From assembly GCA_903845155.1 (NCBI GenBank), contig CAIMWN010000258.1, positions 1 to 41,568 on the forward strand: 41,568 bases of DNA. The letters run 5' to 3'. The position numbers and the translations under genes are program-made. Source of the stretch: Oligoflexia bacterium (GTDB lineage: Bacteria; Bdellovibrionota; UBA1018; CAIMNF01). This document shows, one piece after another, positions 13,958 through 37,966 of the stretch (the stretch's first letter is position 1; every line of letters begins with the position of its first letter). The notes beneath the pieces are model-generated. The model was not told the DNA's origin and did not search any database. It saw only the letters and a program-made list of their open reading frames with translations.

Positions 13958-14335
13958 ATGAATTCACAGCAAGAGAAAATTAATGAAAAAACACTGGAAG
14001 CAGAAATCCTCCCAGTGAGCCCTTATTTAGGAAAAATTCGCGTACTCATCCACCCTGAGATCATGGATCTCATGCCTACTTACCTCAAGCGACGGGAAAT
14101 CGAAATGCAGAATCTGAAAGAGTATATCGTGTCTCAGGATTACGACTCTATCCAGCGATTAGGACATAAGTTATCAGGCCATGGAAGTATGTATGGTTTT
14201 GAACAAATATCCATTTCTGCGCGGAATCTTGAAGCTGCTGCGGAATGCAAGGACATGAATACCATCAAGACCGAAACTCATATTTTAGCCGAATATCTTG
14301 CGCACATTGAAATCGCACCCCAAGGAGACTTATGA
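13958..14335 (+). CDS. Histidine phosphotransfer (HPt) protein
   Basis: 125 residues from the ATG at 13958-13960 (AAGGGG about 6 nt upstream). The HPt motif is clear: RLGHKLSGHGSMYGF with phospho-accepting His70, in an all-helical domain. HPt proteins relay phosphate between receiver domains. Standing alone directly before an NtrC-type regulator (stop and start overlap as ATGA), it is the natural bridge between the hybrid kinase with three receivers at 18597-22832 and the regulator. This coupling is inferred from neighbourhood and domain logic. Confidence 0.92.
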   Translation: MNSQQEKINEKTLEAEILPVSPYLGKIRVLIHPEIMDLMPTYLKRREIEMQNLKEYIVSQDYDSIQRLGHKLSGHGSMYGFEQISISARNLEAAAECKDMNTIKTETHILAEYLAHIEIAPQGDL

Positions 14336-15723
14336 TGAGTAACAAGCATCGAATTTTATTGATTGAGGATGATTTAGATATTCAAGCGTACCTCATGCAC
14401 ACGCTTAAAACATTATACTCGTTCAAAGCCGTAGGAAGCATTTCTCAAGCACTCAATGAACTGAAGAGCCATCCTAACCAATATGATTTAATTCTTACCG
14501 ACGTTCAACTTCCTGGCATCAGCGGCTTGAAACTTACCGAAGCATTGAGAGAAAAGGGAATCGGTACTCCGGTCATCGTGATGACTGCATTTGGCAATCT
14601 GGAAAATGCAGTTACCGCCATGAAAGACGGCGCGTTTGACTACATCCTGAAACCCTTGAACTTTGAAGCCTTAAAAATATCGATCAATCGGGCTCTTCGC
14701 GTTCATACTCTAGAGAGTGACAATTTAATTCTAAGGCAAGAAGTGAAACGCTCTTGGAGTTTAGAAAATATCATCGGAAAAAGTGCCCCCATTCGCGCAG
14801 TTTTTGACTTGATTCAGCGAGTGGCTCCCACACAGGCTAATATACTCATCACCGGGGAAACAGGCACCGGCAAAGAAGTATTCGCTCGAGCCATCCACAA
14901 CCTGAGTGATCGCGCTTCAAAAGCGTTTATACCGATTAACTGTTCGGCAATTCCTGCCGAACTGCTCGAGTCTGAGCTTTTTGGCCACACCAAAGGATCG
15001 TTCACCGGTGCACACCAAGATAAAAAAGGTCTATTTGAAGAAGCCCAAGGTGGAACAGTATTCCTCGATGAAATCGGTGATATGAAAGTTTCTCTGCAGG
15101 CCAAACTGCTTCGAGTCATTCAAGAACGCAAAATCAAGCAGGTGGGCGGCTCAAAACTAATTGATATCGATATCAGAATTATTTCAGCAACCCATAAAGA
15201 CTTAAATGCCGCGATTCAAGAAGGCCTTTTCCGTGAAGACCTTTTTTACCGCCTCTGTGTGATTCCCGTAGAACTTCCAGCGCTCCGCCAACGTAAAACC
15301 GACATACCGTTGCTCATCGGCCATTTCTTAAAAAAGCACAGTGCCACACATGGACTCAAAATTCGTGGATTCAAACCACAAACCATGGAGAAGCTCATGG
15401 AATTTCCTTGGGAGGGTAATGTTCGGGAGTTGGAGAACTTCGTAGAACGCTCTGCTATTCTTTGTGATGACGAGTGGATGGATGAGCAGTATTTACCCTT
15501 TATTAACAAAAAGGTCTCGTCGAGCCAATTTTTAGATGAACGCTTTTCTGAAAATCTCACGCTTCAAGAAGTCGAAAAACGCTACATCAACATGATTTTA
15601 AGAAGAACGGGCATGAATAAAGAGCAATCTGCACAAATTCTAGGGATCAACAGAAGAACACTTTATCGTAAAGAAAAAGAAATGAATACGCCTGAAACCG
15701 CCAGCGCAATTGAGTTAACATGA
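14332..15723 (+). CDS. NtrC-family sigma-54-dependent response regulator (REC-AAA+-Fis HTH)
   Basis: 463 residues. The receiver domain has phospho-acceptor Asp57 (LTDVQLPG) and ends with the conserved Lys in LKPL. The central AAA+ domain has Walker A GETGTGKE (175-182), Walker [10 protein letters not shown], and the sigma-54 contact loop as GSFTGA (222-227), with Ser replacing the usual Ala. The C-terminal Fis-type helix-turn-helix (about 415-450) ends in a [11 protein letters not shown] recognition helix. It would use ATP to open sigma-54 holoenzyme promoters. It is the only such activator in the window, amid about a dozen sigma-54-like promoters. It overlaps both neighbours by ATGA. Confidence 0.96.
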
Positions 15724-18596: not shown

Positions 18597-21500
18597 CTAA
18601 TCCCTCCCTAACTTTGGCATCCAAACCCGAATCAAAGAAAAGAGCTGATGAAGGTCAATCGGTTTTGCAAGATAATCATTCGCACCTGCCTCGAGGCAAA
18701 GGACTTGATCATTTTTAGTAGCTTTTGCTGTCACAGCAATCACAGGCAGTTTCAGAAACCGTTTTTGCTTTCTGATCTCACGAGTCGCTTGAAATCCATC
18801 CATCTCTGGCATCATGATGTCCATGAGCACTAAATCCATGCGTGGATTATCCTCAAGTCTTGCCAGTGCTTCTTTACCATTTCTCGCAACCACAATGCTC
18901 GCGCCTTTTTCTTCGAGTGCTGCCGATAACGCAAAGATATTTCTGACATCATCATCTACCACCAAAATTTTTCTACCTTCAAAAACATCTTCACGATTAC
19001 GGACCGCATTGATCATCTTACGCTGATCAGGTGAAAGCTTGTTTTCGACTCGGTGAAGAAAAAGACTGACTTCATCGAGGAGTCGTTCCGGCGATTTTGC
19101 TCCTTTGATAATAATAGAGCGTGAATATTTTCTGAGATGATCTTCTTCATCGCGAGAAAGGGATCGCCCAGTATATACAATCACAGGAGGGAAAGAGGCG
19201 AGCTCTTCTTGTTCCGTCATTTTCTGAAGCAATTGCTCGCCAGTCATGTCCGGGAGTTTCAAATCAATCACGATGCAGTCATAAACCATTTTTTTAAGTG
19301 CATCGAGTGCCTCACTGCCCAAGGCCACAGAGGTAATTTCTACATCTGGATCAGCGATGAGCTTCACAATACTTTCTCGTTGAAGTTTGTCATCTTCAAC
19401 AATCAAAATACGTTTTAATTTTTGGGAAAGTTTGGCTTCAATTTTTGCGAACGCAGCCTTGAGTTCATCCCGTTTAGCAGGTTTCAACACGTAACCAATC
19501 GCGCCCATTTCAAGCGCCTGCTCCATATAATTATGCGAAGATGCAATATGAACAGGAATGTGCCGTGTCGCCGGATCCTCTTTTAATTGATCCAGCACCA
19601 TTAAGCCTGAATGATCGGGAAGCTTAATATCGAGCAAGATTGCGTCTGGAATAAGACTAAGGGCGAGCGATAGTCCCTCTTCTGCGTCCTGTGCTACCAC
19701 GCATTTATAATGATGCTCATGCGCCAAATCAAAAAGGATTTGTGCAAAAATTGGATCGTCTTCAATGACCAGTACTGTATGCCCCGTAGTCGAAAGCGAA
19801 CCACGATCATCTGCAAAGGACAACGCCTTCGTTCTTTCTGGACGAGGCTTAGGAGGCGTCATTGATGCAGACGCTTGCCCCTGGGCATTTCCGTTCGCAG
19901 TAGAATAAACTTTCGGCGCAGAAGCCTCAATTCGTGACTCGTCATAAGTCTCAGGCAAAACAAGTGTAAAACGGCTCCCTTCACCGGGCACACTTTCCAC
20001 CTCTACGCTTCCACCCAGTAGACGCGCTAAATCGCGAGAAATGGAGAGCCCGAGTCCTGTGCCGCCATATTTACGATTAGTGGTCCCATCTGCTTGACGA
20101 AAGGCTTCAAAAATCACTTCTTGCTGGGCCTTTTGCACCCCGATACCCGTATCAATGACCGACAGGGAAAGCTTACCGTCAGACCGTTTAGAAACATGAA
20201 TAGAGATCTGTCCTCGCTCCGTGAATTTAAATGCATTCGAAAGCAAGTTTTTTAAAATTTGCTCGAGACGCTGCCGATCCGTAAATATAGTTTCAGGAAC
20301 GCTTGGATCAATTTTAATCTTGAAATCGAGTTTCTTTTCCTTAGCTAAAGGATCAAATGTTTTATCTAGGGTCCTCAGCACCTTAGGCAAGAAAACACTC
20401 TCAAGTCTAATCTCCAGTTTTCCGGCTTCTACTTTAGATAAATCAAGAATGTCGTTAATCAGATTGAGGAGATCATTCCCCGCAGAGTTAATAGACAGTG
20501 CATACTGAACTTGCTCTTGATTCAAATTTCCACCCACATTGTCCGCAAGAAGCTTCGATAGAATAAGTGAACTATTTAACGGAGTCCTCAGTTCGTGTGA
20601 CATATTTGCCAAGAATTCCGACTTGTATTGACTTGCTCTTTGAACTTCATCCGATCGCTCTTCCAAAAGTGTTTGGGCTTTGTGGAGAGCTTCATTTTTT
20701 TCATTCAAAATATCTCGCTGCTGTTTTAACGCCTGCGTTTGTTCTTCCAACTGAGTGTTGGTCTTTTCGAGCTCAGACTGTTGACTTTTCAATTTCGTTT
20801 GCGACGACTGAAGCGCCCGTGATTGCTCTTCCAACTCTTCATTGGCGGTTTTCAGTTCTTCTTGTTGAGACTGAAGTTTCTCTGTCAGTACTTGGGACCC
20901 TTCCAGAATTTCTGCCTGCTCTTTGCGCCTAATGGAAGTATTAATAGCAATGCCGATATTTTCTGATACATGTTCCAAGAATGCCTTTTGATGCTCGGAA
21001 AATGGAGTAAATGAAGCAAGCTCAATAACGCCATTCACTTCTCCCTCATAAAAAACAGGCGCTAAAATAAGTGAGGTCGGAGATGCACCTCCCAAATCAG
21101 AACTGATTTTCCCAAAGTAACCTGAAGGAAGGTGATCAAGAAGAATCGGACGCCTCTCTAGTGCCGCTTGCCCGACCAAACCTTCGCCGAGAGCAATGGT
21201 CTTCTCATTGTTTTCAAGTTTGGTAAAAGCATAGCCACTCACCCGCTTCAGAGTTTTTTCTTCATTTACATAATAGAATGCGCCCATTTGCGCATTCAAA
21301 AAGGGCGCGAGATGACTCAGTACACTTTGGCCCAAACCCGATACGTCTTGTTCTCCACGCATTTTATCAGACAATGTGATTTGACCTTCACGAAGAAACT
21401 CAAGCTCGCGCGCCTTCTCACGTAGATCCGCTTCTGCATGCTTTCGTTCGGTAATATCTCGCTCAGTAGTCGCAATCCCGGTTAATTTTCCTTTGTCGTC

Positions 21501-22832
21501 GGTGAGTTTGGTGTTAATCAGCCAAACATCGATGATGCGGCCATCTTTATGCTTACGCTTGGTTTCGAGATTCGGAACGAGTTCGCCCCGCTTCAGCGAT
21601 GCGAGAAAACCAAGCGCCTCTTCTTGATAATCGGCGGGCACGGTGTCGACAATATTTTTGGTAAGGGCTTCGGCTTCTGAGTAGCCGTACATAATTTCCG
21701 CGCCGCGATTCCATGCTAAAATATTACCTTCCAGGTCTTGAAAGGTAATGGCATCATTGGAATCCCTAATTACGGTCGCCATTCGACGGAACTTTTCTAA
21801 TGTTCTTGTCTGCTCGGTGATGTCGCGCTCAGTGGTAGCAATACCACTTAAGATACCTTTATCATCAGTGAGTTTAGTATTCGTAAGCCAGACGTCAATA
21901 ATTCTGCCATCTTTATGTTTTCGTTTTGTCTCTAAGTTGGGTAATAATTCTCCTCGTTTTAAGGATGCTAAAAAACCACGGGCTTCTTCCTGATAAGCAA
22001 TTGGAACTGTATCTACGATATTCATTCGCAATGCTTCTGATTCAGAATACCCATACATGATCTCAGCGCCCCGATTCCATGCTAAAATATTCCCTTCTAA
22101 ATCTTGAAAGGTAATTGCATCGTTGGAATCTTGAATCACCGTCGCCATTCGGCGAAACTTCTCTAGCGACCCAATTTGTTCAGTACCCACTTGGGAACGG
22201 ACCTTTAAGTTTCGAAAAAGTTCAAACGCAAGGAGAATAAAAGAACCGAATAAGATCCAGAAAACAGTTCTCGTTCCCCCCTGCGCATCAGAAACTCGCT
22301 GATCTTTTAACTGCTCTTCCGATGTGAGAATTTGGCTTGCAATTTCTCTAATTGCATCGATCAAAGATTTTCCACGTCGACTCTTAATCAGAGTAGTCGG
22401 ATCGCCATGAGATTTTTTAATACTGATGACGTGATCCGCAACCGTTTCCCACTCTGCCAGGAGTACGGTGATGCGATCTATTCGATCGGTTTGTTTTGGA
22501 TTATCTAAAACCAAATCTCGAAATTTACCAATCGCAATGGGCAATTCGGTTAAAGCATTCTTGTATGTGTCCAGAAATGCCGGGTCACCGGTAATCACAA
22601 AACCCCTACTACCCGATTCAAGTTCCGCCACCTGCCGCTCAATAAAGTTAATCTTTGAAATCACTTGATCTGTGTGATCTACCCAACTCGTCAGACTCAC
22701 CAAGCGATGGACTTGCCAAAACAAAAGTGCCCCCACGCACGTGAGTAAAAAAATGGGAATGATGATGATCGGGCTACTTTTAGACGTCGTTGGTTTTTGA
22801 ATGATTGCTCTTTTCTTGTGGTAAGCCAGCAT
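18597..22832 (-). CDS. CHASE3-PAS-PAS-GAF hybrid histidine kinase with three receiver domains
   Basis: 1411 residues. Order: membrane helix (about 21-42), CHASE3 periplasmic domain (43-185), second helix (188-205), PAS (224-340), PAS (346-462), GAF (about 485-635), long Gln/Glu-rich coiled coil (640-735), HisKA with His746 (SHELRTPLNS), ATPase domain (DTGIGV, GGTGLGLSI), then receivers with Asp1068, Asp1190 and Asp1338. The two PAS units are about 91% identical in protein (11 differences in 117 residues). It lacks its own HPt domain, so the free HPt protein encoded at 13958-14335 is a likely partner. First gene of a four-gene minus-strand operon; its AT-rich 59-bp upstream region is shared with the divergent LysR gene, and no ribosome site is obvious. 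Confidence 0.95.
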   Translation of the reverse strand: MLAYHKKRAIIQKPTTSKSSPIIIIPIFLLTCVGALLFWQVHRLVSLTSWVDHTDQVISKINFIERQVAELESGSRGFVITGDPAFLDTYKNALTELPIAIGKFRDLVLDNPKQTDRIDRITVLLAEWETVADHVISIKKSHGDPTTLIKSRRGKSLIDAIREIASQILTSEEQLKDQRVSDAQGGTRTVFWILFGSFILLAFELFRNLKVRSQVGTEQIGSLEKFRRMATVIQDSNDAITFQDLEGNILAWNRGAEIMYGYSESEALRMNIVDTVPIAYQEEARGFLASLKRGELLPNLETKRKHKDGRIIDVWLTNTKLTDDKGILSGIATTERDITEQTRTLEKFRRMATVIRDSNDAITFQDLEGNILAWNRGAEIMYGYSEAEALTKNIVDTVPADYQEEALGFLASLKRGELVPNLETKRKHKDGRIIDVWLINTKLTDDKGKLTGIATTERDITERKHAEADLREKARELEFLREGQITLSDKMRGEQDVSGLGQSVLSHLAPFLNAQMGAFYYVNEEKTLKRVSGYAFTKLENNEKTIALGEGLVGQAALERRPILLDHLPSGYFGKISSDLGGASPTSLILAPVFYEGEVNGVIELASFTPFSEHQKAFLEHVSENIGIAINTSIRRKEQAEILEGSQVLTEKLQSQQEELKTANEELEEQSRALQSSQTKLKSQQSELEKTNTQLEEQTQALKQQRDILNEKNEALHKAQTLLEERSDEVQRASQYKSEFLANMSHELRTPLNSSLILSKLLADNVGGNLNQEQVQYALSINSAGNDLLNLINDILDLSKVEAGKLEIRLESVFLPKVLRTLDKTFDPLAKEKKLDFKIKIDPSVPETIFTDRQRLEQILKNLLSNAFKFTERGQISIHVSKRSDGKLSLSVIDTGIGVQKAQQEVIFEAFRQADGTTNRKYGGTGLGLSISRDLARLLGGSVEVESVPGEGSRFTLVLPETYDESRIEASAPKVYSTANGNAQGQASASMTPPKPRPERTKALSFADDRGSLSTTGHTVLVIEDDPIFAQILFDLAHEHHYKCVVAQDAEEGLSLALSLIPDAILLDIKLPDHSGLMVLDQLKEDPATRHIPVHIASSHNYMEQALEMGAIGYVLKPAKRDELKAAFAKIEAKLSQKLKRILIVEDDKLQRESIVKLIADPDVEITSVALGSEALDALKKMVYDCIVIDLKLPDMTGEQLLQKMTEQEELASFPPVIVYTGRSLSRDEEDHLRKYSRSIIIKGAKSPERLLDEVSLFLHRVENKLSPDQRKMINAVRNREDVFEGRKILVVDDDVRNIFALSAALEEKGASIVVARNGKEALARLEDNPRMDLVLMDIMMPEMDGFQATREIRKQKRFLKLPVIAVTAKATKNDQVLCLEAGANDYLAKPIDLHQLFSLIRVWMPKLGRD
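21447..21797 (-). repeat. Second PAS-coding unit of a tandem intragenic duplication
   Basis: Encodes residues 346-462 of the hybrid kinase. It aligns without gaps to the unit at 21813-22163, with 11 amino-acid differences in 117. The DNA differs at many third codon positions, so the copy is old. Confidence 0.85.
21813..22163 (-). repeat. First PAS-coding unit of a tandem intragenic duplication
   Basis: Encodes residues 224-340 of the hybrid kinase; partner of 21447-21797, from which it is separated by only five codons. Confidence 0.85.
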
Positions 22833-27193: not shown

Positions 27194-27613
27194 ATGAAAA
27201 AAATTAAGAAGTTTTTTGCTTCTCTTATTATTGCAGCAACTCTCGTTAACACTACTCCAGCGCCACAAGCGCAGGCCGGCATCATTCTCGTTCCAGTACT
27301 GATCGGTATCGTATTCCTGGTCATTGGCATTGAGAATAATGATGTTCTCCTCATCGTACTCGACGCCGATGGCAATCTCCCCCAAGATGCCCTAGAACAA
27401 AATCTCTCTAAGAAATATAGTTTCATAGAGGATCGCGACGTTGTTCGAAATCTAGCGACCATCATTCGCGAAAAAGCAAAAGTGACTCCAGTAGTGAACG
27501 GTCAAAGATTGGTAACCCTTGCTCCCACAGACGTCCTTACTGTCCTTGAGCCTACAGGACTTGCGGTACTTCAACCTGAATTAGTATCAGGGTTAATCAA
27601 GGACCTTCAGTAG
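27194..27613 (+). CDS. Exported protein of unknown function with a hydrophobic segment
   Basis: 139 residues. A basic n-region and hydrophobic core (9-22) form a signal peptide with likely cleavage after AQAG. A second hydrophobic stretch (IILVPVLIGIVFLVIGI, about 30-47) follows closely, so the mature protein may be membrane-associated. The remaining 90 residues are mixed polar/hydrophobic with no family I recognise. An AAAAGGA ribosome site lies about 9 nt before the ATG. It is monocistronic: its own sigma-54 promoter lies upstream and a strong terminator follows. Confidence 0.75.
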   Translation: MKKIKKFFASLIIAATLVNTTPAPQAQAGIILVPVLIGIVFLVIGIENNDVLLIVLDADGNLPQDALEQNLSKKYSFIEDRDVVRNLATIIREKAKVTPVVNGQRLVTLAPTDVLTVLEPTGLAVLQPELVSGLIKDLQ

Positions 27614-27635
27614 ATTTAAAAATCTAAAATAGTGA

Positions 27636-27677
27636 GCGACCTCGGCAACGGAGAAATTCTAAGCTGAGGTCGCTTTT
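27636..27677 (+). terminator. Rho-independent terminator after the 139-aa exported protein gene
   Basis: The 11-bp stem GCGACCTCGGC (27636-27646) / GCTGAGGTCGC (27663-27673) contains one G-T wobble and is followed by TTTT. Confidence 0.85.
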
Positions 27678-27715: not shown

Positions 27716-29068
27716 ATGAAGAAACCAGTCATCAATACTATTGTTGGAATTCTAGCACTGAATTTGTTAAGCTTTTGGACCAGCTCTGCTTATGCCTTAA
27801 GTACCGGTGCCGAAGAATACTGCCGGGAAATTCAAGACGCTCGGAACCAGATTCACAAAGTAAGTCGTGGGAGCCTGATTCGCGACCTCCTTCGCCTCAC
27901 CTTTGCCCCTGGAAAATTGGTTCAATTAAATAAAATAGTCGTGACCGTACCCGAAGCGCTGAAGGTTCACTTTGACCCAGCGACGCAAGAAGGGCCATTT
28001 GCCAAGAATATCATTTTCTCGATTGATCCACCCGAAGAGATTAGCAATTCAACAGAATTTCAAACAATGCAAATTCGCTATGAGGAACTCACTCAACTGC
28101 TCAAGAAACAAAATAAACAACTCATGAAAATTGCCACTGCGACATCTGTCGAAGAATGCGTTGCTCGATCTGAACAGTTTGACTTTAATTTTGATGCCTA
28201 TATGAGTCTTGCAAAAGAAAAGACTTCATTACAAGTAATCGCTCAGCTCCATGAAGGAGAAATTGCAGACCGGATGATCGGCAGAACCCTTTCGCATCTT
28301 AAGCTCAACTGGGAGGTCGTGCACTCTACAGATCTCACGCTCGTTCATGAAATGCTTCGTTCGCCTCAGCTGCAAAACGTGGTCATTATTTCACATGGCC
28401 TTGCTGATGGAAAACTAGTGGACTCTAGAATGAGCGAATACCCTTTGGGATTTTTTACAGATCTTTCACCAAATTTGCATTCGATCGCTATTTTTGCATG
28501 CCACGGCGAGGCCATTGCCGAGGCATATAAGATAAAAGCAACTTTGATGAGCAGCCCTTCCGTTTCCTCAAATAGGACACTTTTTATTTCAGACGGAACT
28601 ACCCTTGCAGGAATGGAAGAGCTAGTACCAGTAAAAGCCTTTCGTTCATTTATGAGAAAAGTTGATTCCGCCCTTGAAGAAGAAATGGCTCTCATGCCCG
28701 ATGAAACACCACACGGAGCTATCTATCAGCAGCCCACACTTTGCAAAATCGAGTTCGATGGATTTCACGTAAAAAACGGCACCTTCGGATATATTTTAAA
28801 TGGTCTCTTTATTGGTTCCTCAAACGCAGACCGCACTGATGTCACCGTTACGTTCCCGTGCGCGTTTGCAAATCGAACAAGAAATATCCTCGTCGTTCGC
28901 AGCCTAAGCCTACTCGGGGGCGCTGGCATTCAATCCTCAGACTTTCATGTCCTTTGGTCTAGCCCGAATCAAAGGATCCACGATTCCAAACTCACGCATT
29001 ACTGGCGGGCCGACAAGAGTTATCAGAGCTCTAAATTTGAATTCAGTCTTGGGCAAAAATCTAACTAA
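27716..29068 (+). CDS. Exported protein with a caspase-like (clan CD) His/Cys signature
   Basis: 450 residues with a signal peptide (hydrophobic 7-20, cleavage near SAYA). A helical region (about 110-190) precedes a candidate alpha/beta core. There a hydrophobic strand ends in His227-Gly228 (NVVIISHGLADG), and about 35 residues on a second hydrophobic strand ends in Ala-Cys262 (SIAIFACHGEA). The hydrophobic-HG ... hydrophobic-AC arrangement is that of clan CD cysteine peptidases (caspase, gingipain, clostripain, CHAT). The C-terminal 130 residues look beta-rich. I could not name a family, and proteolytic activity is inferred. The start codon lacks a clear ribosome site; no sigma-54 promoter is seen. 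Confidence 0.6.
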   Translation: MKKPVINTIVGILALNLLSFWTSSAYALSTGAEEYCREIQDARNQIHKVSRGSLIRDLLRLTFAPGKLVQLNKIVVTVPEALKVHFDPATQEGPFAKNIIFSIDPPEEISNSTEFQTMQIRYEELTQLLKKQNKQLMKIATATSVEECVARSEQFDFNFDAYMSLAKEKTSLQVIAQLHEGEIADRMIGRTLSHLKLNWEVVHSTDLTLVHEMLRSPQLQNVVIISHGLADGKLVDSRMSEYPLGFFTDLSPNLHSIAIFACHGEAIAEAYKIKATLMSSPSVSSNRTLFISDGTTLAGMEELVPVKAFRSFMRKVDSALEEEMALMPDETPHGAIYQQPTLCKIEFDGFHVKNGTFGYILNGLFIGSSNADRTDVTVTFPCAFANRTRNILVVRSLSLLGGAGIQSSDFHVLWSSPNQRIHDSKLTHYWRADKSYQSSKFEFSLGQKSN

Positions 29069-30692: not shown

Positions 30693-31151
30693 TCAGATGA
30701 CTTTTGTGCGTAGCCTAAATATCCCCTTTGGAGCAAGAACGCGAGCGGCCTCTCTCACGACGGCTTCTGGATCTTCCATGTGTTCTAAGAAATCCATGCA
30801 AGTCACCACTTCAAAAGTTCCATCTGCGAACGGCAAATGATAAGCGTCAGCATGAACGTAATTTACTAATTTGGCTTTGTCGTATTGGCTGGCAATATGA
30901 AGAGAAGATTCAGATGCATCGAGGCCGGTTACTCTATACCCATCATTGCCTAAATCATTACTCAAAAATCCGGCACCACAACCTAAATCCAAAACTCGAA
31001 GAAGATTATTCTCATGGAGTGGAAAGGAATCGTGAATCACTTGCTTCACCCAAGCGTTCTTTGTTTTTGCCTCTGCACGCAAAAGAGCGACCGGATCGTC
31101 GTGCGCTTCATACCATCGAGAACCGAGGTCGTGATAGATTTCATTATTCAC
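30693..31151 (-). pseudogene. Truncated UbiG-like SAM methyltransferase of the type III PKS operon
   Basis: The reading frame encodes NNEIYHDLGSRWYEAHDDPVALLRAE, the usual opening of the UbiG-like methyltransferases that accompany type III polyketide synthases, then the SAM motif VLDLGCGAGFLS and the later motifs LPFADGTFEVV and VLEHMED-like. It stops at LAPKGIFRLRTKVI, about 150 residues in, where homologues continue for roughly 90 more. No continuation was found in the other frames. The start is unclear: a GTG at 31149-31151 has no ribosome site, and the frame is open further up to a frameshift near 31254-31258 that would join it to the upstream membrane ORF. Probably a non-functional or unusual remnant. 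Confidence 0.65.
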
Positions 31152-31189
31152 GTTGGGTGAGGAGCGAACTTCGGATTGAAATGGTTTTT

Positions 31190-31405
31190 TTAAAATATTC
31201 CAAAACACCAACTGGTAAAGTGAGTAAAGTGCCAGGATGCCTGCTTGAATTTGAAAAACAGAATGAGCCCCGTAAGGGTATCGAGAACATGACCGATACG
31301 CTCCCAGCGAGGCAAATCCCGCTTATGATGAAAGTAAAACTCATCAAAGGTCATGCTGGCACTTTGAATAACCAGGACGCTTAGGTAGAAACTCAAGAGC
31401 GACAT
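31190..31405 (-). pseudogene. Truncated membrane protein of the type III PKS operon, frameshifted
   Basis: Begins at an ATG inside the polyketide synthase 3' end (13-nt overlap). A hydrophobic helix (SLLSFYLSVLVIQSA) is followed by MTFDEFYFHHKRDLPRWERIGHVLDTLTG. I recognise that motif from small membrane proteins encoded next to bacterial type III PKS genes, from memory and not verified. After that motif the frame turns into FKFKQASWHF and stops. Adding one T in the T5 tract (A5 on the plus strand, 31254-31258) instead gives a continuous hydrophobic stretch that runs on into the methyltransferase frame. So this is either a frameshifted pair or an error in a homopolymer. Confidence 0.6.
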
Positions 31406-32547
31406 AGGCGGAAAACACCACCACTAATTGTGATTCCCGGCCCAAAAGCAATGCAAACAACAATGGCACCATCTTTACGGTTCGGATTTTTCAAAATCGC
31501 CTCCCAAATATGAGGAAGAGTGGCGGATGACATGTTCCCGCGATGCGTGAGCACATCATGACTTTCTATGGTCTGATCAGGCGTAAGCTCCATCACCGCT
31601 TCTACCGTTTCAATAATTTTTGGTCCTCCAGGATGAATGGCATAAATCAAAGGCTGTTGAAACGAAATACCTGCTTGTTCGAAGAGTTTTGCCAGATAAG
31701 GCTTAAGGTAAGTGTTAAACAACCCAGGTACTTCTCTCGACAATGAAATTACAAAATGCGTTGAACCTGGAGTCCAAGTCATGAGTTCGGTGGTATTCGG
31801 AACAATGGTTTCAAGTAAGGATAGAACTTCAAATCCAAGTTTCGGTTTTTTCCGAGTCATGCTGTACTTCATGTGCCCATCTGCGAACAAACTCTGAACC
31901 ACCATTTGTTGCGGATCAAAATCGAGGGGATTCACATGCAAAGAACAAAGTTCATTATGGACTATATCCACTTTGTACGGAACTTCATTTTCTCGAACCG
32001 CTGGAGCACTCGCCGACAATCCACGTGCGAGCCTCAGTGCTGGCAGCGAAGCATAGCACCCCATATGATAGGCGTGAGTGACCGTCGATGGTTTTTCCCA
32101 CTGCGCCACTATTCTTTGTGCAGGACTCGGTGAACTATAGCCTGTGCACGACACGTGAATGAGTTGATCGGGTGCAGATTCTCCTTTTTGTACGGGATAA
32201 AATTCTTTAAATACTTCCTGAACTCGATCGGAGTAAAAACTCATTCTTGAATCAAGAGTGGGAAGATGCGCACTGTTAAAAAAGGTCAGCTCGGATTCAT
32301 TTCCGGGAAGCACCACTACATAATCACCCACCTCAGTGCGACGTTCTTTAATTTTTGAATTCGCAAGGCCAAAGCGTTGCACCTTCGCTTCAATTCTTTT
32401 GCGCTCTATGGGTTTGTCTAAATCAAGAGCTACCCGCTTTTGATTCATTAAAAGCCTAATATCGACCATGTTTTTAACCGACTGGTCTTGGGAGAGCAAA
32501 AACTTGGGACAAACAGAATGAAAATCAGAAATATATACTGGCGTCAT
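31393..32547 (-). CDS. Type III polyketide synthase (chalcone/stilbene synthase family)
   Basis: 384 residues from the ATG at 32545-32547, with GGGAGG about 8 nt upstream; a 37-residue longer form lacks such a site. The catalytic triad is complete: Cys164 (YHMGCYAS), His305 (IHPGGPK) and Asn338 (THRGNMSSAT). The GPG loop is present near 369-371. The homodimer condenses malonyl-CoA units onto an acyl-CoA starter in the cytosol. Bacterial versions make alkylresorcinols, alkylpyrones or tetrahydroxynaphthalene, often lipidic quinols for envelopes or cysts. Its companion genes downstream are truncated or frameshifted, so the final product may differ from that of intact operons. Confidence 0.95.
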   Translation of the reverse strand: MTPVYISDFHSVCPKFLLSQDQSVKNMVDIRLLMNQKRVALDLDKPIERKRIEAKVQRFGLANSKIKERRTEVGDYVVVLPGNESELTFFNSAHLPTLDSRMSFYSDRVQEVFKEFYPVQKGESAPDQLIHVSCTGYSSPSPAQRIVAQWEKPSTVTHAYHMGCYASLPALRLARGLSASAPAVRENEVPYKVDIVHNELCSLHVNPLDFDPQQMVVQSLFADGHMKYSMTRKKPKLGFEVLSLLETIVPNTTELMTWTPGSTHFVISLSREVPGLFNTYLKPYLAKLFEQAGISFQQPLIYAIHPGGPKIIETVEAVMELTPDQTIESHDVLTHRGNMSSATLPHIWEAILKNPNRKDGAIVVCIAFGPGITISGGVFRLCRS

Positions 32548-32667
32548 GTTGAATCCTCCCGTTACGTAGCTGTGATATCGCACTTCACCTAAAACAAATA
32601 GAGCGTTGCGATAACTTAATGTGGAAGCAAAAATAACAACAACATTTTCGGAGTCCAATCTGAGAAG

Positions 32668-33327
32668 GTGAAAACAGAAATAAATTTATTTGCATTTTTA
32701 CTCGCGTTCTTCATTCTACAAAGCGCCTGGGGAAAAGTAATCGTGTATGACCTCACACCACTGAACAGCAAAACCCCCGGAATAAAATTCTACCTCCCCT
32801 TTACTGCTGGGACTCATGAGGGTGAGTCGAATCAGCTTCTAGGTTCAATCACTATCGACACAGAACACTGGAACGATTCTCATGGTGAGTTTCATGTACC
32901 GATTGATTCTATCACTACCGGTAACAAAACGCGCGACTGCCACCTGCGCGAGTCACTAGGACTCAACTACTCCGATGCCCATTACCCAGCAGAACACTCC
33001 TGCACAGATCAGAATCAGTTACCACTTTCAGGAAAACGATCCGTGATATACCCAGAAATCACTTTGAAAATACACTCTCTCAGCAAAACACCCTCCTCCG
33101 ATTTGCTTGAGATTAATGGAACATGGACTATTCATGGCAATTCTCGGGCGGTGAAACTCCCCGTTAAAATGCTGCCTCATGGAAAAGAATTTCAGATTCA
33201 AGGCGAAGCCGAGTTATCTTTAAAAGACTACGGCGTAGAAGTAAAATCGGTCCACCTACTCTTTGTAAGCATATCAGTACACGATCAGGTGAGAGTGCTT
33301 TTCAATCTACTCTTGTCACCGCATTAA
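32668..33327 (+). CDS. YceI-family exported lipid-binding-like protein
   Basis: 219 residues from a GTG, with a signal peptide (hydrophobic 6-20, cleavage after WG). The YceI lipocalin-like beta-barrel is recognisable in LTPLNSKTPGIKFYLPFTAGTHEG, the IPIDSITTGNKTRDCHLRE-like block, and the closing ISVHDQVRVLFNL; the final segment is a variant of the usual strand. YceI proteins bind polyisoprenoid-type lipids in a hydrophobic cavity, mostly in the periplasm. Divergent from the polyketide synthase gene (120-bp gap), it could handle a lipid product of it, though that link is speculative. It overlaps the convergent lipoprotein gene by 26 nt. Confidence 0.82.
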   Translation: MKTEINLFAFLLAFFILQSAWGKVIVYDLTPLNSKTPGIKFYLPFTAGTHEGESNQLLGSITIDTEHWNDSHGEFHVPIDSITTGNKTRDCHLRESLGLNYSDAHYPAEHSCTDQNQLPLSGKRSVIYPEITLKIHSLSKTPSSDLLEINGTWTIHGNSRAVKLPVKMLPHGKEFQIQGEAELSLKDYGVEVKSVHLLFVSISVHDQVRVLFNLLLSPH

Positions 33328-36382: not shown

Positions 36383-37966
36383 ATGCAACCCATACGTCAG
36401 TCCATCATCAGCACACTCATCTGCTCTCTCATTTCCATGAGCGTGAATTCAAATTCGTATGCAGCCAACTGCAATGCCATCGCTAATGTGAATCAATATG
36501 AAAGTAATGACTCATGGATTGCAAAAATAAAAATCACAGCAGAAAATTTTATCGTCGCTGCCATTGCTCCTGAAGGCGGAAGCCCGGGCTCCGTCATGGC
36601 ATCACCGAGTCGCGGCGATCCAAGCCATCCCGTTAGTCAAAACTATTTTTATCATTGGAAGCGGGACTCTGCACTGACGATGAAAGAAGTTTTCTATTTG
36701 GCAATGGGTGCGAAGGCAAAAGGCGATGTAAATAAGATGAACAAATATTTTGGTCTGCTCAGCGATTACGCCAGCTTTTCAAGAGGTCTTCAACTCACCC
36801 CTAATCTAAGCAGTGATATTGACCACAATGGCGTTCGCAATGTGGATGGTCGCGGAGTGGGAGACCCAAAATTTAATATGAACGGAACTGCATATTGGGG
36901 CGAATGGATGAGACCTCAGAATGACGGACCAGCTCTAGAAGCGCTTACCCTCATGCTTTATGCGAGGGCGCTGATTGCAGACGGTAAAATGGATCAGGTG
37001 CTCAAAACCCTCTATAATCCGACCCTCCCCGCGAATACCGTCATCAAAGTAAATTTAGAAGCAACTGCAAAATATTGGAGTGAGCAAAGTGGAAATGTCT
37101 GGGAAGATAAAAAAGGCGATCACTTTTTTACTCGTCTCGCACAATGGAAAGCAATGAAAGAAGGCGCCGATTTCGCGCGTCTCATGAATGACCCTTTCGC
37201 TGCTGATCACTATAGTCAAATTGCAGCTACCATTCAGCCAACTTTGAATCAATTTTTTAATCCTGCCGATGGTTACATTCACGCTACCGTCAATCAAACT
37301 TCCGGCATTGACAAAGGTGCTTCACTCGACGCTGAAATCCTTTTTGCAGTCATTCACAGCGCTGAATTGGGTCAACCCTTCTCAATATTAGACGACCGGG
37401 TAATGGCTACTCTTTTGAAACTAGAACAAAGCTTCATGCCCATTTATGCCATCAACAAAATTAAGACATCAGCGGCGGGAGAACCGCTCGGAACTGCGAT
37501 TGGACGTAATCAAGAAGACAAATATAATGGCTACACTACAGACGCCACCTCACTCGGAAATCCTTGGTTCATCTCTACACTTGGAATGGCTGAAGCATAT
37601 TATCAATTTCGAAACGCATTAAATATCGTAGGAAACATTACGGTAAGTCCGTTGAACGTAAACTTTTTGAATGCGATCGGAATGTCGAAACACCTCACTC
37701 CCGGAATGGTAATTAAAAAAGGAAGCGTACAGTGGAGTGATCTCGTGGTATCTGCAAAACAAAAAGGCGATGGCTTCATTCAACGCTCAAAATTCCATTC
37801 AGCAGCAGACGGACACTTCAGCGAACAGTTCAACAGAGATACCGGTACCGAAGAAGGGGTAGCTGACCTCACCTGGAGTAATGATGCATTCCTCAGCCTT
37901 GATCGCTCCATGACCTTCAGTCTTGCTGATTTAGCAACTCGCCTTGGCTTGACGCACTTATATTAA
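36383..37966 (+). CDS. Secreted glucoamylase (GH15)
   Basis: 527 residues with a signal peptide (cleavage near SYAAN, about 27). GH15 hallmarks: NYFYHWKRDSALT near 87-99, YWGEWMRPQNDGPALEAL near 171-187, the candidate general acid Glu241 in NVWEDKKGDHFFT, and the general base Glu481 in GHFSEQFNRDTG, followed by WSNDAFL. The (alpha/alpha)6 enzyme releases glucose from the ends of starch- or glycogen-type glucans. The length matches a single catalytic domain without a starch-binding domain. Export implies use of external or prey-derived glycogen. A sigma-54-like promoter lies upstream. Confidence 0.93.
   Translation: MQPIRQSIISTLICSLISMSVNSNSYAANCNAIANVNQYESNDSWIAKIKITAENFIVAAIAPEGGSPGSVMASPSRGDPSHPVSQNYFYHWKRDSALTMKEVFYLAMGAKAKGDVNKMNKYFGLLSDYASFSRGLQLTPNLSSDIDHNGVRNVDGRGVGDPKFNMNGTAYWGEWMRPQNDGPALEALTLMLYARALIADGKMDQVLKTLYNPTLPANTVIKVNLEATAKYWSEQSGNVWEDKKGDHFFTRLAQWKAMKEGADFARLMNDPFAADHYSQIAATIQPTLNQFFNPADGYIHATVNQTSGIDKGASLDAEILFAVIHSAELGQPFSILDDRVMATLLKLEQSFMPIYAINKIKTSAAGEPLGTAIGRNQEDKYNGYTTDATSLGNPWFISTLGMAEAYYQFRNALNIVGNITVSPLNVNFLNAIGMSKHLTPGMVIKKGSVQWSDLVVSAKQKGDGFIQRSKFHSAADGHFSEQFNRDTGTEEGVADLTWSNDAFLSLDRSMTFSLADLATRLGLTHLY

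Follow-up and report, generated by a model that had tools for sequence, protein, structure and literature searches.

Bacteria of the phylum Bdellovibrionota carry an undescribed and unannotated, multi-copy family of predicted exported, caspase-like proteins, and nearly all genes of this family are paired with a gene for a small exported protein. We describe the member found in an Oligoflexia bacterium (assembly GCA_903845155.1; Bdellovibrionota, a predator lineage), on a contig stretch of 41,568 nt that is hereafter called the window. Our preferred reading, to which we give a probability of about 0.6, is that the protein is an exported cysteine peptidase of caspase-like type that either acts on a membrane partner or is under its control. 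It would leave the cytoplasm by the Sec route and fold at the cell surface or in the periplasm, where a disulfide-bonded beta-sandwich at the C-terminus would carry the caspase-like alpha/beta domain. In the peptidase, Cys262 would act as nucleophile and His227 as base, with Asp236 in the active-site loop. The small exported partner would insert a glycine-rich hydrophobic hairpin in the membrane, and the 2 genes would form a module in which the peptidase most likely cleaves its partner, or is held and controlled by it. This two-gene module is new relative to the preliminary description of the DNA. To our knowledge, physiological substrates are not known for most bacterial caspase-fold proteins; a fixed partner gene provides a concrete candidate for a substrate or a regulator. 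Should the partner prove to be the substrate, this gene pair would reveal how the lineage employs caspase chemistry outside its cytoplasm, where predators and prey meet.

The caspase-like gene occupies positions 27716-29068 of the forward strand; its open reading frame is confirmed, begins with ATG, and encodes 450 amino acids. Residues 1-27 (27716-27796) read by inspection as a textbook Sec signal peptide: MKKPVINTIVGILALNLLSFWTSSAYA, followed by Leu, combines an MKK start, a hydrophobic core, and an SSAYA end. AlphaFold2 gives this region a pLDDT of 27-36, and relatives have similar N-termini. The predicted caspase-like alpha/beta domain (residues 94-333; 27995-28714), delimited with AlphaFold2, Foldseek, and hhalign, includes a helical insert at residues 107-192. 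It is followed by the C-terminal beta-sandwich (residues 340-447; 28733-29056), assigned from AlphaFold2 and conservation. Within the alpha/beta domain, the putative catalytic His227 (28394-28396) comes after strand 219-225, Asp236 (28421-28423) lies in the subsequent loop (H-x4-G-x-L-x-D), and the putative nucleophile Cys262 (28499-28501) comes after strand 256-260. The preliminary description had proposed a signal peptide on this protein and His227-Gly228 and Ala261-Cys262 pairs that each end a hydrophobic strand; inspection of the sequence supports the former, and the codons at 28394 and 28499 and the modelled strands place the pairs as it had them.

Genome searches returned family matches in 31 of 369 phylum genomes, some with 2 or 3 copies; the source genome holds 2 further paralogs, on contigs C77 and C83. 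A scan of wider genome contigs used a tight 4-row alignment and yielded close relatives only, and a close relative (48% identity) sits in a MAG record labelled Betaproteobacteria bacterium. The family alignment comprises 42 distinct proteins taken from the matched loci, with a median pairwise identity of ~19%. Its 5 most conserved positions in the protein are Asp236 and Cys262 (both 42/42), Tyr271 (41/42), His227 (40/42), and Pro243 (40/42), and 35-36 residues separate His and Cys in 38 of the 42 members. The His227/Cys262 pattern is more than chance, since it is retained across 42 relatives at such low identity. His is followed by Gly in 15 members, by Ser in another 15, and by Ala in 6. The HG...AC pattern of the preliminary description thus stands for its His and Cys; the Gly is no family feature, and it is Asp236 and Cys262 that lead the conserved positions.

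The protein has exactly 5 cysteines, at positions 36, 148, 262, 343, and 382. Cys343 and Cys382 are each found in 37/42 members, Cys36 in 38/42, and Cys148 in 34/42; 2 short members, L069 and L070, do not have the segment that bears Cys36 and Cys148. With Cys343 and Cys382 kept equally often, and Cys36 and Cys148 kept in most full-length members and both missing from the 2 short ones, Cys262 would be the unpaired residue. The simplest reading is that of 2 disulfides, including a likely one between Cys343 and Cys382 in the beta-sandwich, and 1 free Cys262. Members of the family also differ in length. Short exported relatives of ~235-270 aa with an HGSxDGxxxD...C motif and no beta-sandwich (L071, 4367-5170; L075, 3920-4669) resemble a pared-down form of the caspase-like domain. 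At the other extreme, members of ~670-880 aa have an extra N-terminal region before the caspase-like part (L002 on C77 of the source genome, 1501-3987; L042, 1850-4015; L044, 616-3261).

We consider peptidase activity likely; in clan CD (the caspase superfamily) such activity goes with a strict P1 preference. Alternatively, the caspase-like fold may exist without proteolysis: the protein would then be a pseudo-peptidase for binding or scaffolding at the surface or in the periplasm, with a ligand bound by the sandwich and a structural role for the loop residues. We judge this unlikely. It draws on the variable residue after His across the 42 members, and on the related L069 and L070, where Gly or Arg replaces His; since Cys and Asp are retained in both, the Cys may serve a purpose other than catalysis there. 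It also draws on the C-terminal domain: beta-sandwiches dominate the Foldseek matches of the whole model, and those of C2, GH2, and CE20-ancillary type are among them. Pseudo-variants of bacterial caspase homologs do exist, in the form of the pseudo-orthocaspases (PMC6426788). Yet His and Cys are both retained in 37 of 39 clusters formed at 60% identity, despite the divergence elsewhere (~19% identity), and a fixed, unpaired cysteine outside the cytoplasm is something that most surface-binding proteins do not need.

Directly upstream of the caspase-like gene, profile searches place the partner gene (27194-27613, forward strand), which encodes a small exported protein of 139 aa. Partner proteins span 126-193 aa, have no Pfam match, and share a common layout: the signal peptide closes with a conserved AxA before Gly (AQA in the window), and a hydrophobic stretch rich in Gly, a Leu-Asp (LD) motif that is conserved, and a C-terminal domain come after it. 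The partner profile matches 16 of 369 phylum genomes, and all 16 also have a caspase-like gene (hypergeometric p = 7e-20). At the level of loci, 23 of 26 partner matches lie within 2 kb of a caspase-like gene on the same strand. The other 3 comprise one beside a truncated contig-end open reading frame (L183), which resembles the beginning of a caspase-like family gene, and two that stand solo on contig 11 of genome G160. Viewed from the family, a partner is adjacent on the same strand in 25 of the 29 genes with readable flanks (22/29 by the iterated profile, plus G001 C11, G003 C43, and G007 C2 by an earlier profile). The 4 genes with no adjacent partner are the C77 paralog of the source genome, in which the dyad is present; the contig-end gene L048; and the His-less L069 and L070, the contig of the latter ending shortly after the caspase-like gene. 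The coincidence of His loss and partner absence in L069 and L070 is suggestive of a co-loss, probably in a single evolutionary event.

The order of the 2 genes varies, and so does the junction between them. In the window, where the partner comes first, the spacer contains a terminator-like hairpin (27635-27674, forward strand) with a 12-bp stem followed by TTTT and a z-score of -3.9; a stricter terminator scan, with loops limited to 8 and five T required, leaves it out. Such hairpins occur in 8/10 partner-first spacers vs 6/74 other same-strand spacers of the same loci (Fisher p = 2.7e-6). The L032 spacer, not scored among the 8 owing to a too-early start codon, also folds strongly when the likely start is used. 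Because a terminator-like hairpin usually separates the genes in this order, partner and caspase-like gene need not be co-transcribed, and we set aside an ordinary operon running from partner into caspase-like gene. Where the caspase-like gene comes first (L173, L174, L175, L177, and L179), it is usually followed by 2 or 3 partner copies, of which the leading one overlaps or abuts the caspase-like stop codon. Both arrangements, as judged from gene order and spacers, would favour more partner than peptidase.

Is the partner a functional counterpart or a neighbor by history? That it serves as substrate or regulator, either role alike, we hold at roughly even odds. On the historical account, which we find improbable, the genes encode 2 separate exported proteins that belong to one regulon and form no functional unit; the hairpin that usually stands between partner-first genes and the 2 lone copies in G160 speak for it. 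Set against this account, the genes conserve their adjacency and shared strand, whichever of them comes first, in a family diverged to ~19% identity, stop and start codons overlap where the caspase-like gene leads (L173, L175, L177, and L179), and none of the 16 partner-bearing genomes has a partner without a caspase-like gene. A second recurrent pair is found near the module in relatives: a small, Gly-rich, signal-peptide-like protein and a protein of ~398 aa (L177, 7061-8765; L178, 3159-4812; L179, 6821-8474; L176, 1653-3378 and 5370-7099; L065, 1776-3442).

The fold of the protein was modelled with AlphaFold2, with the window protein and 4 relatives as input and a second run on the domain alone. 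The whole-protein model has a pLDDT of 80.8 and a pTM of 0.77, and the domain model 81.8 and 0.74. From the N-terminus, the modelled order is strand 97-102, the helical insert, strand 199-203, helix 207-214, strand 219-225 leading to His227, strand 256-260 leading to Cys262, helices 264-279, strand 286-293, helix 306-326, and the beta-sandwich (342-447 in the model). The succession of strand and His, then strand and Cys, appears in both runs. This alpha/beta order is compatible with the six-stranded sheet and 5 conserved helices of the caspase topology, for which the Foldseek matches are not significant. Among the best 50 matches to the domain model, ~21 are caspases 3, 6, 7, 8, or 9 or SAVED-CHAT proteins, and REC, flavodoxin, and mixed folds make up most of the remainder. 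The first rank goes to a REC/flavodoxin type (E 0.12), the best caspase has an E of 0.23, and no match falls below 0.001; the caspase matches share 14-18% identity over ~100 columns. With the whole model, gingipain RgpB ranks fourth (E 0.012).

Profile comparisons offer a separate line of evidence. The family core aligned by hhalign with DUF4347 proteins of the phylum at a score of 35-38, a probability of 48-51%, and an E of ~1e-4 over 64 columns, in which the His residues of the two profiles coincide and so do the Cys residues; this was the only profile tested that brought the dyad into register. The probability was 56-58% with both profiles reversed together, and reversed decoys scored at most 13 (probability at most 0.13%). 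Against the family core, receiver domains of the source genome scored 14, C25 17, and C14 24. Several independent and individually modest lines thus point to a caspase fold for residues 94-333, which these models and profiles make quite probable, a good case and not a conclusive one. The caspase fold of the preliminary description is partly supported, by the position of the dyad after the strands and by the DUF4347 register, and less so by Foldseek, where the caspases are non-significant and mixed with REC and flavodoxin folds. The comparison with known folds that it had put forward as a check is likewise divided: it yields the caspase/CHAT share and the RgpB match, and nothing below 0.001. 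A different alpha/beta fold outside the caspase superfamily (a flavodoxin-like, receiver-like, or Rossmann-like thiol hydrolase with a convergent Cys-His pair) would suit the REC/flavodoxin first rank and the weakness of all matches, but we consider it improbable, given the receiver score of 14 vs 35-38 for DUF4347 with decoys at 13 or below, the caspase matches over ~100 columns, and a strand order with His and then, ~35 residues on, Cys, as is typical of clan CD (PMC4357240).

Membership of clan CD is defined by a His that terminates strand 3 and a Cys that terminates strand 4, and all its families with a known structure share a structurally conserved Gly beside the catalytic His (McLuskey and Mottram 2015, PMC4357240). 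In the AlphaFold2 model, His and Cys of our protein lie at the C-terminal ends of 2 consecutive core strands; the Gly is present here (Gly228) and is lacking as a family-wide feature. Since Gly228 is not conserved across the family and no named family is matched, we use the label caspase-like and make no family assignment.

The closest likeness in the dyad region is to DUF4347 (PF14252), which has a like arrangement (HG closing a hydrophobic strand, then a loop, then a strand closed by SC) and whose phylum relatives are exported; the G-x-L-x-D-S loop of the family and its C-terminal beta-sandwich were not seen in the DUF4347-like proteins that we read. Gingipains are exported proteins in which a caspase-fold domain is followed by a beta-sandwich. 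The C25 gingipain RgpB (PDB 1cvr, 4ief) thus has the architecture predicted for our protein and ranks 4, 13, and 24 in the whole-model Foldseek search, but the TM-score is low (0.16-0.17), Pfam gives no match, and neither the propeptide nor the surface-sorting domain of gingipains was recognized in the caspase-like protein. C14 caspases and metacaspases and CHAT proteins share an alpha/beta domain with a His-Cys dyad after consecutive strands; they differ in that the C14 profile leaves His and Cys out of register, the Gly after His varies in our family, and our family is exported and not cytoplasmic. We claim no kinship specifically with C25 or C14, for which hhalign did not align the dyads.

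That no known family is matched, as first described, was borne out by database scans. Pfam and NCBIfam, applied to the protein, its relatives, and the partner, gave chance-level hits only, and the PADLOC anti-phage defence models matched neither the caspase-like protein nor 2 relatives nor the partner (chance level only for the last). The Pfam gathering score of DUF4347 was not reached by the protein or 9 relatives; their sole sub-threshold match (E 0.024) is spurious and lies in the signal-peptide region. C25 (PF01364) and C14 (PF00656) were found neither in the family proteins tested nor in the source genome, and CHAT (PF12770) neither in the family proteins tested nor in 114 sampled phylum genomes. 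Neither the protein alone nor a 13-row profile matched any PDB sequence, viral contigs, phages, and plasmids yielded no relatives, and a Foldseek search of the model against viral models gave no match.

Export had first been held to set the protein apart from most bacterial metacaspases and CHAT proteins. This contrast is not supported within the phylum: C25 (gingipain-type) domains occur in 64 of 192 phylum genomes, and many phylum C14 and DUF4347-like proteins start with signal-like sequences. Elsewhere, 46 bacterial metacaspase-domain proteins have a single N-terminal helix, possibly a signal peptide (Asplund-Samuelsson 2012, PMC3501461). Exported caspase-fold proteins are common in Bdellovibrionota, and export itself is not unusual. 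The C25 domains of the phylum occur in open frames of ~2000-3500 codons (G284, G185, G111, and G096, among others), often in several copies per genome.

A mechanistic analogy, and that alone, can be drawn with bacterial gasdermin systems, where the gene of a caspase-like protease adjoins that of a membrane-acting protein. The pair described here differs: both products have signal peptides, the partner is a hydrophobic-hairpin protein and no gasdermin, and the pair is known from genes alone. By this analogy, the module might be an extracytoplasmic two-component system in which the caspase-like peptidase cleaves its membrane-inserted partner and switches membrane activity on or off, following caspase/gasdermin-like logic with unrelated parts. 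We regard this as a long shot; the cut site would perhaps be the conserved Leu-Asp between the partner's hydrophobic hairpin and its C-terminal domain. The broader reading of an exported peptidase with a membrane partner has its own counterevidence in Foldseek scores of REC/flavodoxin folds as good as those of caspases, in a Gly in only 15/42 members, in the 2 His-less members, and in a C77 paralog that lacks the partner.

The window encodes further proteins of note. On the reverse strand, 18597-22832 encodes a 1411-aa hybrid sensor kinase with CHASE3, PAS, GAF, and HisKA/HATPase domains and 3 receiver domains, and a sigma-54 response regulator is found at 14332-15723. A chalcone/stilbene-synthase-like type III polyketide synthase (31393-32658, reverse strand; Pfam PF02797) has as neighbors a methyltransferase-domain open reading frame (30693-31211, reverse strand) and a YceI-like protein (32668-33327, forward strand), and a glycoside hydrolase family 15 protein is encoded at 36383-37966 (forward strand).
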